The notes: a model not told the origin generated them from the letters alone. Positions 16,290-22,826 are shown, numbered from the stretch's first letter. The stretch is DNA of 64,000 nt from Bifidobacterium catenulatum subsp. kashiwanohense JCM 15439 = DSM 21854 (GCF_001042615.1 NZ_AP012327.1:372001-436000); one strand, 5' to 3'. Numbers and translations are program-made.

Positions 16290-16482
16290 CCGCATATTCT
16301 CAGGTTTTTCTTTCGCTGACAATCCAATAAAACCCGATTTGGGCGTGAACGCTTCCATATCGTGCCATACAATGGGGGAAATAGGCGAAAGTTGTCAATT
16401 AATCGCGTCATAATCCTGAAATACGTGGCAAGGCATGACACAATGGCAAAGAGTGTTGTGTGTGAAAGGAAGGCCGACAACG

Positions 16483-17892
16483 GTGAGCGAAGATCAACGA
16501 ACGGCGCAGCAGTGGACCGTCAAGGTTGATGGAACCGAACTCAAGAAGCTGGAAAGCGGCGAAAGCGTGGAAATCGGCCGTAAGCCGTTACGTCCTCTGG
16601 TGGATGATGGATTCGCGCGACTTGACATTATGGACGCAAACAAATCCATGTCGAAACGGCATGCCATTTTTTCAGTTGATGCGCAGGGCAATGCTTCCGT
16701 GCGTGATCTCAAGTCGACCAATGGTTCGTTCGTGGTGGCCGACAATGGCCAATTGATGCGTCTGCCGGCGGATGAGGATTTCCAATTGCCGACCACACCG
16801 ATGACGCTGCAATTCGGTGACGTGCGCGTCACCTTCGAACGAGACATCGCACAGACAGTGCCTGAGACTGAGAGCCATGCGTCGGCTTCGGTCTCCAACC
16901 TGTTCTCCTACGCAGTGTCCGACGAGGTGCCGCAGGAGCCTGATGCGGTGGATATGTCGGTCGATGATATTCTCAACCTGCGTGCCGGCGAGCCGACCGC
17001 ATTGTTCAACGCGCGCAACGTCGCCAATCGTGTTAATTTCATGCAACTTGCCGAGCGTCAGTCTTTTGCTCCCGTCCGTTCCAACGAGCCGGATTATGGA
17101 GATTTGCCGTCTGTTTCGTTGGTGCAGCATAACGTGGTCGCAGACAATACTCCGCGCGACCTGTTCGCGGATGCCGTGGCGGAACAGCAGGCCGCGGAGG
17201 AAGCCGCCAAGAAAAACGCTGCGGAAAACGAACATGAAGCGAATCAGCCGGAATCCGTGCAGGAAGTCGCATTGCCGACGCAAACCGCAACAGGCAACGA
17301 AACCGAGCATGACACGATTCCCGTGAGCAAGCTGTTCAGCGCGCATCCGAGTAAACCGATTATCGTGGCGTTGCCGGCTGAAGAAAACAATATGTCGGAA
17401 CAGCAGACAGAAGCATCGCACGAGCAGTCCAACGAAATAGGGGAGCAGTCTGCCACGATCGTGGAGCAGACACACGACGAAACTCCAAGCCAAGAGGAAA
17501 CAGCGTTGCAGCAGGCCGATGATGAGCGCTTCAGGCCACATGCTACACAATCGCAGGTTGCGAGCGAACCGTCGCCGGACGAAACCAGCGCGTTCAAGCC
17601 TGTTTTCGAACCCGGATCAGTGTTCGACCGCGTTTCCAAGGGCGAGCTCGTCAAGCAGGAGCAGACCATCGAAGTCGACGGGCTGACTTCGGATGATGCC
17701 AAGCGCACCGACGATTTCACCGTGCAGTTCGAGATGGCGCGTCATCCGGAACTGCTGCCATTCCTTGCCATGAACCCGTCGCTATACGACGATCTGTATG
17801 CATGGCTGGGCGCATTGGGCAATACAGACATCGACGCGGCCCTGTCACATAATCCGGGGTATGCGGAATACCGTAAAGCGGTAGGGAAGTGA
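16483..17892 (+). CDS. FHA-domain protein with disordered middle and short C-terminal helical domain
   Basis: 469 residues from GTG 16483, chosen because AAAGGAAGG at 16465-16473 fits it; an in-frame ATG at 16435 lacks one. Residues about 25-90 form a forkhead-associated domain with the phosphothreonine-binding residues intact: Gly32-Arg33, Ser57...His60 in SKRH and Thr79-Asn80-Gly81. Residues about 130-400 are acidic, Gln/Glu-rich and probably disordered. The last 60 residues (FEMARHPELLPFLAMNPSLYDDLYAWLGALGN...) resemble the variant repeat units common in bifidobacterial proteins. Its stop overlaps the start of the next gene by 4 bases. The FHA domain implies control by a Ser/Thr kinase encoded elsewhere. 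Confidence 0.8.
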   Translation: MSEDQRTAQQWTVKVDGTELKKLESGESVEIGRKPLRPLVDDGFARLDIMDANKSMSKRHAIFSVDAQGNASVRDLKSTNGSFVVADNGQLMRLPADEDFQLPTTPMTLQFGDVRVTFERDIAQTVPETESHASASVSNLFSYAVSDEVPQEPDAVDMSVDDILNLRAGEPTALFNARNVANRVNFMQLAERQSFAPVRSNEPDYGDLPSVSLVQHNVVADNTPRDLFADAVAEQQAAEEAAKKNAAENEHEANQPESVQEVALPTQTATGNETEHDTIPVSKLFSAHPSKPIIVALPAEENNMSEQQTEASHEQSNEIGEQSATIVEQTHDETPSQEETALQQADDERFRPHATQSQVASEPSPDETSAFKPVFEPGSVFDRVSKGELVKQEQTIEVDGLTSDDAKRTDDFTVQFEMARHPELLPFLAMNPSLYDDLYAWLGALGNTDIDAALSHNPGYAEYRKAVGK

Positions 17893-20800
17893 GCCAACAC
17901 ATGAGCGAAAGCAAAGAGAACATCACTGAGCTGGATCGTATTCGTGGGTGGCGTGAGAAGTATCGTCTTGGCCTGTCGCCGTCGCCGCTTGAGGATGTGA
18001 CGCAGCTGAGTGCCCAACTTGATATGACGCACGCGCACCCGTCCGGCATCGCGCAGCTATTCGCCAGCGGGCATGTTCAGCTCAATTCCTTGTTCCGTGA
18101 CAACGGCATGTTACGTGCCGCGGGTCGTCGTGTGGAACGTGTGCTTGATGACCGTGAGGCAAAAAGCCGTGTCAGCGGCGTGGGCGAGTTGTCTTTGGTG
18201 GTCGGCGTGGCCATTTGGAAGGGCAATCAGATGCCGGTGCTCATGTACCCGGTCGAAGTGCGCAAAGAAGGCCGCAATATCGAAAACGGCACGGTGATCG
18301 CATTCACAGGGCGTGTACGTCTGAACGCGGCTTTCGCGGCCGTGCTGCGCGAGAACAACGTCATATTGGATGAGGCCAAGCTGTTTGACGGTTCGAACTA
18401 TGAGAGCGGCACGCCAGAGACGTCTGCGGTGTTCGCGGCCATTACGGATCGTGCGGCCAACGCGTTCCCCGATTTTGAGATCGAAAGGCACATTATTCTC
18501 GGGTGCTTTATGGATCCGGCGTCGCAGATGCTGGTGGAAAGCCAGAAGATCATCGATCAGTTGGCCCAAGGTCCGACCGGCAACACCGCTTTGGACGCTT
18601 TGGCTGGAGACAAGGCCGCCGCTGAAGCATTGGAGGGGGCTGAGATTCCGGAATACAGCCCGTTCGATGCCGACCCGCATGGCGAGTATGAGGTCGGCGA
18701 TATCGACAATACCGTCCGATACGCTTCGCAACTTGCGTCCGCGGGCCATTCGTTGTTTGTGGATAGCTCGATTGCTAACAATACCGCCGAGCAGGCTGCC
18801 GCGATCGCATCCCGTTGTGTGATGAACGGACGTTCCGTGCTTTATGTGCCATGCGTGACCGATCAGAAACGTCGATTTGTGCAGGCCGTCGCCGCGAATG
18901 AGATGAGCGGACAGTTGTTAGATATCGCCGATGACGGTGCCAATGCGGCTATTGATCGTCAATTGATTGCCGCTGTTGGATTCCAATCCGGTGTTGCTTC
19001 GTCTCGATTTGATCAGATTTCCGACGAATTGGTTGGTGTGCGCTCCCGTTTGACCCGTTATCTGGGCGATCTTCATGGCGTGAGCCAGGAGTGGGGCGTA
19101 TCCGCCTACCAGACGATTCAGAATCTCGCTCAGATCGCGGCGCTACCCACCCATCCGACCACGCACGTGCGTTTGAGTAAGCAGACTGCGCATTCCATTG
19201 CGGACAAGATCGAGGATTGGGCTGCGAAACTGCAGCGTGCGGGTGAGCTTGGCGAATACACCATCACGGAGAACGACACCGCATGGTACAAGGCTTCGCT
19301 GTATTCCGAAGAGGAAGCGGTGAGCGCATACCAGCGTGTGGTCGAACTGTTGCGCAAGGTGCTGCCCGCCACCCGTGAGCAGGTGGCCAGCACGGTGCAG
19401 ACCTGCGGATTCCCGATTCCAACGACCGCCCAGGAGTGGGGGCGCCAGGTCATGGTGTTGAAGAACCTGCGCCGAGTGCTTGACGTGTTCCAGCCGGAAA
19501 TCTTCGAACGTGACATCGCATCCATGATCGAGGCGACCAAGCCGAAGGCCGAACGCAAGGCCGAAGGCAGTTCCATGGGATTCTGGGAGCGTCGCCGCCA
19601 CATCAAGGAAGCCAAGGGCATGCTGCGCGTCGGTGCCCAAGTGGAGAACCTGCACGAGGCGTTGCTTGTGGTGTCCAAGCAGGCCGATCAGTGGCATATG
19701 TTCGTGCCTCATGGCGGCTGGCCGGTGCTGCCCGCCAAGCTGGATGACATCATCGAAACGCAGGAGAATCTCAATCGGGATATGACCGCGTTGAATGCGG
19801 TGCTTGCCACAACCCCGCAGGGAGGCAATCTCGAAACCGTTGACTTCAACCAGGTCGAAGAGCGTTTGAAGGCCCTGTATGACGACAAGCAGGCGCTTGA
19901 CAATCTGCCGGAGCGCGCCCGTTTGGAGCGTGACTTCCACTCGGTTGGTCTTGACGAGCTGATTGAGGATCTGAACAATCGTGGTATTCCCAACGATGCT
20001 GTCGCAGGGGAACTGCAGTTGGCATGGTGGACCACGGCGTTCGAGGATATTGTGAAATCCTCCGCCATTATCTCCAACCAGGATGGTTCGGCATTGCAGG
20101 GCGCTGCGGAACGCTTCGCCCAAGTCGACGTGGAGCACGTGCGTTCGATCGGGCCGATGGTGGCACAGGAATCCATGCGTCGCCTGTGCGACATGCTGTT
20201 CTCGCGTACGCAGGAAGCCAATCTGCTGCATACCATGCTTGCCGGCTCCCACAACGTTTCGTTGAATCGCCTGCACAAGGAGCATCCGCAGATTCTCGCA
20301 GCGGCGAAACCGATTCTTGTTGCGACGCCCGCCACACTTGCAGCGATCACCGATCCGGCGCCGTTAGCTGACGTCGTCATCATCGATGCAGCCGCGCATA
20401 TCCAGTCCATCGAATTGCTGAGCATCATCAGCCGTGCCAAGCAGGTGGTGGTGATCGCACATCGTGAAACAGTCACATCCGATGGTCTGAAGCGTCTTAT
20501 CGCACTGCTGCCGAGCGTAAAAATCGCCAATCGTCCTGTTCGACGCGCTCCGAAGCTCAATGCGTTCCTGGAATCGGAAGGCTACGGCTCCGTACCTTTC
20601 GACGTGGCAAGAGAAGGCGCGCAAGGCGAGATCGCCTACCATTTCGTACCTGACGCCAACGGTGTGCCGGTCATCACTTCGGGACTGGTGGAAAGCAGCC
20701 AGCAGGAGATCGATGAGGTGGTCAGGCTGATCACTAAGCGCGCCGCCGGTTTTACCATTGTGCCCGCATCATACATGCTTACAGTGGTGACGCTTACGCA

Positions 20801-21521
20801 TACGTTCCGCACCCGACTGGGGGCAGAGCTCAAGGCCATCGCCAACAAGAACAAGGCCATGGGCATGTTCCTTCGCCATGTGCGCATCGTGGATATCTCC
20901 GACGTGGCCGGAGCGCATGCCACTGATGCGATTCTTGCGATGTGCTATGCGAAAACCTCCCATGGGCGCCTACTGCAGCAGTTCGGAGCGTTGGAATCCG
21001 AAGGCGGGCGAGGCATGCTGCTGGACGCGTTGGCCGTGCCGGACCGCCATCTTGACATCGTGTCCGCGTTCTCGTCGTCCGACATGGATGACGAACGTCT
21101 GCATCAGGCCGGCCCGAAGATGCTGAAGACCGTGCTTCGTTGGATGGAGCAGCTTGATGACAGCGTGGTGCGCCCCGCCGTCAGGATGACCGGCTCGAAC
21201 GTGCTTCTCAACGATCTTGCCGATCGCATTCGAGCCCGTGGACTGAATGTGGCCGTCGATTATGGTTTCGACAATGGATCCAAGCTGCCGCTGGTGGTCG
21301 GTCTGAACGACAAGCCGTTCGCGTTGGCGGTGCTCACCGACGATGCGCAATTCATGGGGTTGCAGTCCACCAGGGAACGTCACCGTGTGCTTTTGCAGAA
21401 CATCGAATCGCTTGGCTGGTCTGTTATGACCGTGTGGAGCGTTGGTGCGTTCGTGAATCCAGACAAGGAAGTGGACCGTATCGTGGCACGCCTGAGCGAC
21501 CTGTATCAGGAGGGCAAGTGA
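17889..21521 (+). CDS. Large SF1 helicase/nuclease-like protein with degenerate catalytic motifs
   Basis: 1210 residues from GTG 17889 (GTGA overlap with the FHA gene); ATG 17901 is an equally possible start. The order resembles the DUF4011-type helicase-nuclease proteins. The N-terminal region (GELSLVVGVAIWKGNQMPVLMYPVEVRKE) is followed by a P-loop position at about residues 288-306, a long helical insertion, a Walker B position near Asp833 and a C-terminal restriction-endonuclease-like domain (about 1110-1205, ending VWSVGAFVNPDKEVDRIV). The expected GTGKS is replaced by DSSIANNTAE, the DEAS box by DAAAH, and the nuclease Asp...Glu-x-Lys positions by KLPLVV and LAVLTDD. The frame is intact, so it is not a pseudogene but probably a non-catalytic scaffold or binding protein. 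Function unknown. Confidence 0.7.
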   Translation: MSQHMSESKENITELDRIRGWREKYRLGLSPSPLEDVTQLSAQLDMTHAHPSGIAQLFASGHVQLNSLFRDNGMLRAAGRRVERVLDDREAKSRVSGVGELSLVVGVAIWKGNQMPVLMYPVEVRKEGRNIENGTVIAFTGRVRLNAAFAAVLRENNVILDEAKLFDGSNYESGTPETSAVFAAITDRAANAFPDFEIERHIILGCFMDPASQMLVESQKIIDQLAQGPTGNTALDALAGDKAAAEALEGAEIPEYSPFDADPHGEYEVGDIDNTVRYASQLASAGHSLFVDSSIANNTAEQAAAIASRCVMNGRSVLYVPCVTDQKRRFVQAVAANEMSGQLLDIADDGANAAIDRQLIAAVGFQSGVASSRFDQISDELVGVRSRLTRYLGDLHGVSQEWGVSAYQTIQNLAQIAALPTHPTTHVRLSKQTAHSIADKIEDWAAKLQRAGELGEYTITENDTAWYKASLYSEEEAVSAYQRVVELLRKVLPATREQVASTVQTCGFPIPTTAQEWGRQVMVLKNLRRVLDVFQPEIFERDIASMIEATKPKAERKAEGSSMGFWERRRHIKEAKGMLRVGAQVENLHEALLVVSKQADQWHMFVPHGGWPVLPAKLDDIIETQENLNRDMTALNAVLATTPQGGNLETVDFNQVEERLKALYDDKQALDNLPERARLERDFHSVGLDELIEDLNNRGIPNDAVAGELQLAWWTTAFEDIVKSSAIISNQDGSALQGAAERFAQVDVEHVRSIGPMVAQESMRRLCDMLFSRTQEANLLHTMLAGSHNVSLNRLHKEHPQILAAAKPILVATPATLAAITDPAPLADVVIIDAAAHIQSIELLSIISRAKQVVVIAHRETVTSDGLKRLIALLPSVKIANRPVRRAPKLNAFLESEGYGSVPFDVAREGAQGEIAYHFVPDANGVPVITSGLVESSQQEIDEVVRLITKRAAGFTIVPASYMLTVVTLTHTFRTRLGAELKAIANKNKAMGMFLRHVRIVDISDVAGAHATDAILAMCYAKTSHGRLLQQFGALESEGGRGMLLDALAVPDRHLDIVSAFSSSDMDDERLHQAGPKMLKTVLRWMEQLDDSVVRPAVRMTGSNVLLNDLADRIRARGLNVAVDYGFDNGSKLPLVVGLNDKPFALAVLTDDAQFMGLQSTRERHRVLLQNIESLGWSVMTVWSVGAFVNPDKEVDRIVARLSDLYQEGK

Positions 21522-21787
21522 GCGTCGACGAGCATTCTCCGCAGGAGTCTTCCCAGGAAACTGACCAGCCTGCCGTTCGCGTGGTGTCCGGCTATTGCGC
21601 CACTCGCCGAACGGCACGCAAGCACAAGCGTGTGATCCGCCAGGGCACTGAGCTGTTCGATGCGGACGGCGTTAAGCTCGAACCGTCCGATGTGCTCACC
21701 GAACGTCAGCGCAATGCGGATGATGACAAGCGTATTCTGGGTGAACTGCCGCCGCATTGGGGCGTGTTCTCCGAGAGGGGACGCTGA
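21518..21787 (+). CDS. Conserved small protein of the FHA/pseudo-helicase cluster
   Basis: 89 residues from GTG 21518, which overlaps the previous stop as GTGA; AGGAGGGCAAG just upstream serves as ribosome binding site. After an acidic, probably disordered N-terminus it has a basic middle (SGYCATRRTARKHKRVIRQGTELFDADG) and ends ERQRNADDDKRILGELPPHWGVFSERGR. No family is recognised. The repeated 4-base overlaps tie it to the FHA protein and the pseudo-helicase, so the three products probably act together. Confidence 0.7.
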   Translation: MSVDEHSPQESSQETDQPAVRVVSGYCATRRTARKHKRVIRQGTELFDADGVKLEPSDVLTERQRNADDDKRILGELPPHWGVFSERGR

Positions 21788-21815: not shown

Positions 21816-22505
21816 TCACGAACTGACGATGGCGATAATCGCGCTGTACTCTTGAGCCTGCAAAACGGTCGCCGCTTCATGAGGAGGCATGGCAAACACC
21901 GCAAGGGTGTTGCCGTCCGCATCGCGCGAGGGTTTTGCGGTCAGGATCGCGCCCGAGCATAATTCGCGCAGCGTCACGGCATCCGTATCCGGGGATGCCT
22001 CCGGTGTTGCCTCGCCGAATATCGTGGCGCTGGAAAGTGTCACGACATCGCCAAGCGACAGATTGTCGGCGGAACTTGCCAATCGCACTTCGATTACCGT
22101 GTATCCTTCGGAAACAACGGGAGAGGCACGCGCCATGGTCGACGTGACGATGCCGCCTTCCGCAACGTCCACTTGGGCGATTAGCCCGACGGCATCGGCG
22201 CAATCATGGAAAACATTACGTAAGGCCTTGTCATACGGAAGATCGCGCAATGCGAGCGAATCCGCGGTAATCACGCTGCCTTTCGCAATGGGCTGCGCTG
22301 CGATGACAACCGGTTGCGTGGAAATCGTCAATCGCACGCACTGCAGGGCTGCGAACATGGCAAGTCCGGCACAGACCGCGGCGAGCAGCCGGTGCAATCG
22401 TGCATTCTTCCGTCGCCAATGAGGCGCAGTCCGCGTGCCATCGGTCGTTCGCCTGCCATCCATGCCCTGCAGACGTTGCAACAAATCATGAAAAAAGGTC
22501 ACCAT
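21816..22505 (-). CDS. SAF-domain membrane-anchored protein (CpaB-like)
   Basis: 229 residues. One membrane segment at about residues 38-58 (LHRLLAAVCAGLAMFAALQCVRL) follows a basic cytoplasmic stretch. The outside part contains a SAF domain: VVIAAQPIAKGSVITADSLALRDLPYDKALRNVF, then DVAEGGIVTSTMA and GYTVIEVRLASSADNLSLGDVVTL. SAF domains occur in CpaB pilus assembly proteins and antifreeze-like proteins; in actinobacteria a SAF protein often sits beside 5-formyl-THF cyclo-ligase and the FmdB zinc ribbon, as here. No pilus genes are near, so the role is unknown. The downstream gene end is 29 bases from the convergent small gene. Confidence 0.75.
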   Translation of the reverse strand: MVTFFHDLLQRLQGMDGRRTTDGTRTAPHWRRKNARLHRLLAAVCAGLAMFAALQCVRLTISTQPVVIAAQPIAKGSVITADSLALRDLPYDKALRNVFHDCADAVGLIAQVDVAEGGIVTSTMARASPVVSEGYTVIEVRLASSADNLSLGDVVTLSSATIFGEATPEASPDTDAVTLRELCSGAILTAKPSRDADGNTLAVFAMPPHEAATVLQAQEYSAIIAIVSS

Positions 22506-22643: not shown

Positions 22644-22826
22644 TCACTTGGATTTGTCGGTGCGGTAGAAACCGGATCCTTTGAATTCGATCGGCGGTGC
22701 GGAATACACCTTGCGGACCTGTTCCTCGCCGCATTCGGGGCAGATGGTGATCGGGTCGTCGGTGAACGACTGCTGCTCGGTGAAATCGTAGTTGCAGTTC
22801 TTGCAACGGTAATGATAAGTAGGCAA
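22644..22826 (-). CDS. FmdB-family zinc ribbon protein
   Basis: 60 residues: two CxxC pairs (CKNC and CPEC) in MPTYHYRCKNCNYDF...ICPECGEEQVRKVYSAPPIEFKGSGFYRTD, the complete hallmark of the FmdB regulatory-protein family. The mycobacterial relative Rv0991c was reported as a redox-regulated chaperone partner with a disordered tail; this protein is shorter and ends soon after the zinc ribbon. It lies in the same minus-strand run as the cyclo-ligase and the SAF protein. Confidence 0.9.
   Translation of the reverse strand: MPTYHYRCKNCNYDFTEQQSFTDDPITICPECGEEQVRKVYSAPPIEFKGSGFYRTDKSK

Follow-up and report, generated by a model that had tools for sequence, protein, structure and literature searches.

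The stretch of DNA considered here, referred to as the window, comprises 64,000 nucleotides of the genome of Bifidobacterium catenulatum subsp. kashiwanohense JCM 15439 = DSM 21854, a single contig of 2.34 Mb (G000). The designation HEL is used for the product of the open reading frame 17889-21521 and its orthologues, and TAIL for the small PPHW protein encoded downstream of it; f-numbers denote families and L-numbers loci. The following features were assigned.

16435..17892, plus strand: gene of an FHA + LRV_2 protein of 485 amino acids, directly upstream of HEL
16570..16761, plus strand: FHA domain, with the phosphothreonine-site residues GR, SxxH and TNG present
17725..17850, plus strand: C-terminal LRV_2 domain of the FHA protein
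17889..21521, plus strand: HEL, predicted pseudo-helicase/pseudo-nuclease gene, 1210 amino acids, GTG start
18759..18791, plus strand: ghost Walker A (motif I), VDSSIANNTAE; IKGPPGTGKSQ in intact orthologues
18981..20048, plus strand: helical insert (residues 365-720) that separates motif I from motif II
20379..20399, plus strand: ghost motif II (Walker B/DEAS), IIDAAAH; xxDEASQ, e.g., IFDEASQ, in intact orthologues
21015..21047, plus strand: ghost motif VI (arginine finger), MLLDALAVPDR; RLNVAVTRARR or RLNVAITRSRR in intact orthologues
21213..21494, plus strand: Vsr-like REase domain at residues 1109-1202 (Pfam MTES_1575), catalytic Asp/Glu replaced
21518..21787, plus strand: TAIL, small PPHW-motif protein, 89 amino acids, GTG start, four-base overlap with HEL
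21719..21760, plus strand: conserved core DDDKRILGELPPHW of TAIL; the same motif is the C-terminus of fused HEL proteins elsewhere
21816..22505, minus strand: SAF-domain gene, a convergent neighbour common to relatives across the order (synteny anchor)
22644..22826, minus strand: FmdB-type zinc ribbon gene, assigned by position and resemblance, the domain itself having been tested only in the relative L041

The reading frame of HEL is open throughout, as had been stated in an earlier note on this DNA, and the overlaps of four bases with both neighbours described there were found again, namely GTGA at 17889-17892 for the FHA gene and GTGA at 21518-21521 for TAIL. The former overlap hinges on the GTG start of HEL; an ATG is located at 17901. 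In relatives, HEL and the small gene are followed by convergent genes for MscL, the SAF protein, the FmdB zinc ribbon and 5-FCL, with varying completeness.

Fold and family descent of HEL

A phmmer search of HEL against the PDB returned no real match, and a fold search was therefore needed. The AlphaFold2 model of residues 11-1210, obtained with a 58-row alignment, had a mean pLDDT of 90.2 and a pTM of 0.78. According to VIA-align, the model resembles the solved structures of IGHMBP2 (4b3f; Z 17.1, 480 residues, rmsd 5.8), UPF1 (2xzo; Z 16.7, 475 residues, rmsd 6.0), Dna2 (Z 16.1) and Aquarius (Z 16.1), and Foldseek agrees in that Upf1-like SF1B helicases are the best solved matches. HelD, the RNA-polymerase-bound SF1 protein, ranked low in the Foldseek list, and its likeness was dismissed as that of the generic RecA core. 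The predicted model contains the two RecA domains typical of SF1B; on the strength of this model, HEL keeps the SF1B helicase fold and does not have the unrelated fold that a structure search might have revealed.

At the level of family models the relationship is less direct. The DUF4011 model of Pfam does not match HEL of the window, and MTES_1575 matches it with an E-value of 2.2e-9 and 37.7 bits, 0.5 bit under the gathering cut-off of 38.2. NCBIfam ProA (E 7.6e-46, 156 bits against a cut-off of 1500) and Hhe (E 9.1e-17, 60 bits against 2000) do not reach their cut-offs; PADLOC PDC-S37 matches with an E-value of 1.5e-50. Orthologues with intact motifs match AAA_11, AAA_12, MTES_1575 and mostly DUF4011 above the Pfam cut-offs, both DUF4011 and MTES_1575 being found in L079, L105 and L096, and the assignment to the DUF4011-type family, which had been proposed earlier, therefore holds. 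From the sequence comparison, HEL is seen to descend from DUF4011-type SF1B helicase proteins with a Vsr-like nuclease, the kind to which MTES_1575 of Microbacterium testaceum belongs (PMC3710099). Descent from active helicases is indicated by the intact-motif orthologues at the same locus within the order, whose activity is deduced from their sequence. The synteny of the locus is common to motif-less and intact members, which argues for one inherited gene.

In comparison with the DUF4011-type SF1 helicase + Vsr/MTES_1575 REase proteins (Hhe, ProA, PDC-S37), HEL is alike in domain order, SF1B fold and recognisable REase end, and two of the order's families have orthologues in which the helicase motifs and Pfam domains are kept. 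HEL differs in being motif-less, in its length of 1210 amino acids (theirs 1550-1900), in scoring far below the family cut-offs, and in being a single-copy core gene at a fixed locus that is linked to a PPHW gene.

Loss of the catalytic motifs

Upon alignment with relatives, the replacements named in the earlier note were found to sit at the correct motifs. The Walker A sequence GxGKS/T is absent at the aligned position, as are the Walker B DExx, the arginine finger of motif VI, and both the catalytic Asp and Glu of the REase domain; the latter positions read KLPLVV and ALAVLTDD, with RIDLAV/PIDLAV and VLAIECDG/LVAVETDG in relatives. As far as sequence motifs are concerned, HEL is devoid of everything associated with ATP binding and hydrolysis, force coupling and DNA cleavage.

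Among 106 proteins examined, 15 retain the Walker A lysine together with the DE box (13 of 22 in f17, one in f4 and one in f45), while all 23 rows from the Bifidobacteriaceae lack both. Motif loss is uniform among these Bifidobacteriaceae rows but not throughout the order, where f17 and f4 contain intact forms; the close homologues with Walker motifs that would have spoken against the proposal were not encountered, such motifs being retained only in distant families and there at the same aligned position. Nor was the Walker A lysine present in a second, independent collection of 79 named genomes, among them Actinomyces, Cellulomonas, Oerskovia, Georgenia, Ruania and Promicromonospora, as far as their rows were properly aligned, rows L224 and L255 being in a wrong frame and left out of this reading. 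For the scan of these genomes a closer set served as query; the full-breadth alignment contained no stretch conserved enough for it. A regular-expression match to GKS/T in 17 of the 79 relatives was rejected as a displaced Walker A and attributed to the GFGKT of the RecA2 motif V region. Many relatives (e.g., L062, L079) have a GxGKT-like stretch, GYGKTPHGR, at this place, which can mimic a Walker A.

It might be argued that HEL is a cryptic enzyme, binding or hydrolysing nucleotide via substitute residues or via the GxGKT of RecA2 motif V, given that G[FY]GKTPHG is present in many relatives and the helicase fold is kept. However, the stretch is located in RecA2, is equally found in orthologues whose Walker A is normal, and in the window protein has the sequence CYAKTSHGR; the residues at motifs I, II and VI differ freely among the motif-less members, and in PriA of Deinococcus radiodurans an exchange of the Walker A lysine for arginine alone accompanies the loss of activity (PMC4504706). 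A cryptic activity is, consequently, regarded as improbable.

The open frame had been taken earlier as a sign of selection, and this is corroborated by pairwise omega values of 0.04-0.13 for HEL within Bifidobacterium and by its presence in 101 of 101 genomes of the genus, a few copies being interrupted by an insertion or by the end of a contig. Values of 0.35-0.39 were obtained for two pairs from other families. That HEL would be a decaying relic, its frame open by chance, could be put forward as every catalytic motif is gone; it is refuted by these selection data. When the 50 most conserved sites of the motif-less relatives are mapped, 19 fall into the helical insert (14.7 expected), compared with 11 in intact relatives, and none falls into the motif I block, which holds six in intact members. 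Judged by these conserved sites, the fold of HEL is retained and the ATPase centre is not.

Beyond the genus, HEL is found as a single-copy gene in 292 of 297 genomes and 93 of 94 genera of the GTDB order, the five genomes without it all being fragmented or incomplete assemblies; at the class level it is confined to 24 of 148 genomes, order members counted in. A full-length copy persists even in two family members with genomes of 0.8-0.9 Mb that are 99-100% complete. HEL is a core single-copy gene of the bifidobacteria and of nearly all of their order.

Phylogenetic trees of HEL, for which the motif columns were removed prior to building and a second set was calculated under a mixture model, follow the families. 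The intact GKS/DEAS proteins are placed in f17 and f4, two families of the order, and in f45. The remaining families sampled from the order fall into a motif-less clade (SH-aLRT 100 with 68 rows; 99 with 43 rows under the mixture model), and f38, f25 and part of f17 represent further motif-less lineages. A minimum of four to five changes between the intact and the motif-less state would be required; the direction of change, i.e., loss, was deduced from the intact outgroups and not from parsimony. Graded forms of motif I lead from GRTQ, GQTQ, GATQ and GGTQ via GADVPG to those of the bifidobacteria. Motif loss, common to almost the whole order, is no local oddity; according to the trees, the loss of the catalytic motifs is ancient and recurrent, having occurred in one large clade and separately in at least three other lineages. 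The intact relative L072 (G428, f45) is located away from the mscL locus, with the PPHW gene of the same genome on another contig, and for these reasons may be a defence-type paralogue instead of a true orthologue.

The best family models being anti-phage ones (ProA, Hhe and PDC-S37, with the E-values given above), HEL could be imagined as a defence protein, acting either by killing the infected cell or by binding nucleic acid of the phage. Its distribution, however, is that of a vertically inherited core gene at a fixed locus, kept also in the 0.8-0.9-Mb genomes, and contrasts with the usually patchy occurrence of defence genes; its ProA and Hhe scores amount to a tenth or less of the respective cut-offs, and its catalytic motifs are lost. 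There is, then, only a slim chance that defence is its present role.

Two bifidobacterial genomes encode a separate DUF4011 helicase of approximately 1600 amino acids (L070 in G046, and G063:C9:87208-88857), with Walker A and DEAS intact in L070; it is presumably a mobile defence-type gene. Since pseudoenzymes often regulate active paralogues, HEL might serve an active DUF4011 helicase of its own cell as a subunit with a regulatory or decoy role, in favour of which these two genomes, with an intact relative in the one read, could be cited. A second relative at E<=0.001 occurs, however, in only 2 of 101 genomes of the genus, and because an active paralogue is that rare, this possibility is largely refuted.

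The PPHW protein and the FHA protein

TAIL ends in DDDKRILGELPPHWGVFSERGR. It had been described as a small basic protein, but its pI is 6.3, with 15 K/R against 16 D/E residues. A PPH[WFY] sequence directly before a stop codon, downstream of HEL, on the same strand and within 1.5 kb, was found at 85 of 94 loci, and the surrounding motif is nearly always [DN]xRxLxxxPPHW; control windows gave 1 of 94 (antisense) and 0 of 94 (upstream of or inside HEL). In 14 loci, belonging to f5, f9, f13, f15 and f17, PPHW is the C-terminus of HEL itself, and in 65 further loci the PPHW gene is tightly spaced and on the same strand as HEL. In the repeat with named genomes, PPHW accompanied HEL in 71 of 79, four of these being fusions, which include Occultella and Luteimicrobium. 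A D/N-x-R-x-L-x3-PPHW protein is, in short, linked to HEL and has become fused with it repeatedly. Variants of the small protein were observed as well: those of f37 end in KPPHH (PPHW/PPHH loci L163-L182), and in L032 and L033, from the 0.8-0.9-Mb genomes, it is reduced to a frame ending in LPPHFDSFA, with the HEL and FHA genes kept. No family for the small PPHW protein was found in Pfam, NCBIfam or PADLOC at loose thresholds.

A profile of 48 positions (GWGD ... DxRLxRxRPPHW) matched 117 of 148 genomes of the class Actinomycetes at E<=0.1, usually in one copy and including many genomes without HEL; in a sample of the phylum, all matches at E<=0.001 were inside the class. In HEL-less genomes, the PPHW gene is often located beside mscL-SAF-fmdB-type genes; the PPHW protein is, thus, older than its pairing with HEL. 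For the same reason, adjacency alone could be an inherited chance insertion, and only the fusions argue for joint function. It is, accordingly, conceivable that the link is positional, HEL having been inserted next to a housekeeping locus of greater age (PPHW, mscL, SAF, fmdB, 5-FCL) and acting independently of the PPHW protein. In f38 and f25, moreover, the two genes are separated by 0.7-5 kb or found on different contigs, which fits this view. It would not be expected to yield C-terminal fusions in five families and in the named genera, nor does it sit well with the four-base overlap in the window and the tight same-strand spacing elsewhere; independence of the two proteins is, for this reason, somewhat unlikely. 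When a natural fusion (L125) was modelled, no docking site was found; the tail segment is of low confidence (pLDDT 38-61), and the model, therefore, says nothing either way.

The FHA domain of the upstream protein is well recognised by PF00498 (32.7 bits against a cut-off of 20.7), and its phosphothreonine-site residues are kept in those orthologues whose N-terminus is covered. In this respect it corresponds to the actinobacterial FHA proteins of the FhaA/FhaB type, from which it differs in its architecture of FHA domain, long acidic linker and LRV_2; with the FhaB model of NCBIfam it scores 13 bits against a cut-off of 125, which is no match. Three more LRV_2 matches occur in G000, at C1:2269500, 1832439 and 1832019, two of which share one frame of 222 amino acids. 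The FHA gene is located directly upstream of HEL, on the same strand, at 38 of 38 Bifidobacteriaceae loci, mostly with gaps of -4 to +18, and its omega within Bifidobacterium is 0.09-0.33 where dS is measurable. FHA gene, HEL and small gene, thus, occur together across the bifidobacteria, as had been anticipated. At the loci examined outside the Bifidobacteriaceae, no FHA gene was found beside HEL, for which reason it is seen as a lineage-specific addition. The suggested coupling to an FHA protein stands for the Bifidobacteriaceae and fails as the core of the system; as the genomic comparison indicates, the conserved partner of HEL is the small PPHW protein and not the FHA protein.

Proposed function and meaning

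The preferred reading, to which we attach a probability of about one half, is that HEL is an ATP-free pseudo-helicase/pseudo-nuclease scaffold forming a unit with the PPHW protein, to which an FHA adaptor is joined in bifidobacteria. HEL would work without ATP as a structural platform, its RecA, helical-insert and REase surfaces binding nucleic acid and/or a protein partner; the same retained surfaces would also bind the PPHW protein, giving rise to a fixed two-protein unit. In the Bifidobacteriaceae, the FHA-LRV_2 adaptor, a product of this same operon, would tether this unit to a threonine-phosphorylated partner and, thereby, bring about phospho-controlled recruitment, a partnership suggested by the operon structure. 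Most probably, a mobile defence-type DUF4011 helicase was captured beside the older PPHW gene in the ancestor of the order; catalysis would then have been lost several times while the scaffold function was kept. In terms of its sequence record, HEL is probably an ancient non-catalytic scaffold with an important function. The wider notion of an order-wide core complex, made up of a repeatedly inactivated DUF4011 helicase-nuclease scaffold and an ancient PPHW protein, with phosphothreonine control by FHA added in bifidobacteria and a scaffold role of such weight that it outlasted genome reduction to 0.8 Mb, is put forward tentatively.

Two known pseudohelicases invite comparison. PriA of D. radiodurans, in which the Walker A lysine is replaced by arginine, has no ATPase activity and still binds DNA and DnaB (PMC4504706); as in HEL, Walker A/B of a bacterial helicase is lost and the gene is kept. 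PriA belongs to a family of SF2, has suffered the milder loss and acts in a known pathway, whereas HEL is order-wide and has lost its nuclease motifs, too. By analogy, it may serve as a precedent for ATP-independent binding by HEL. Utp25 of the SSU processome shares with HEL the vestigial motifs and the helicase fold and is kept as an essential non-catalytic protein (PMC9539457); in contrast to HEL, it is a eukaryotic DEAD-box relative in a known complex and without a nuclease domain. Validated pseudohelicases are rare, only Deinococcus PriA and Utp25 being counted in the latter study (PMC9539457).

In the open literature on PPHW, degenerate helicases of Actinobacteria and DUF4011, no description of the HEL family was found. 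Pseudohelicases as a class are already known; new is a predicted pseudo-helicase/pseudo-nuclease that is core to a whole order, has lost catalysis repeatedly and has a conserved peptide partner. Since one conserved locus offers both intact orthologues and several in which the motifs were lost independently, the order of events in the loss of activity would be directly testable. A universal, unstudied gene pair is, thereby, flagged in the bifidobacteria and their order, together with an uncharacterised small-protein motif that is common to a whole bacterial class.
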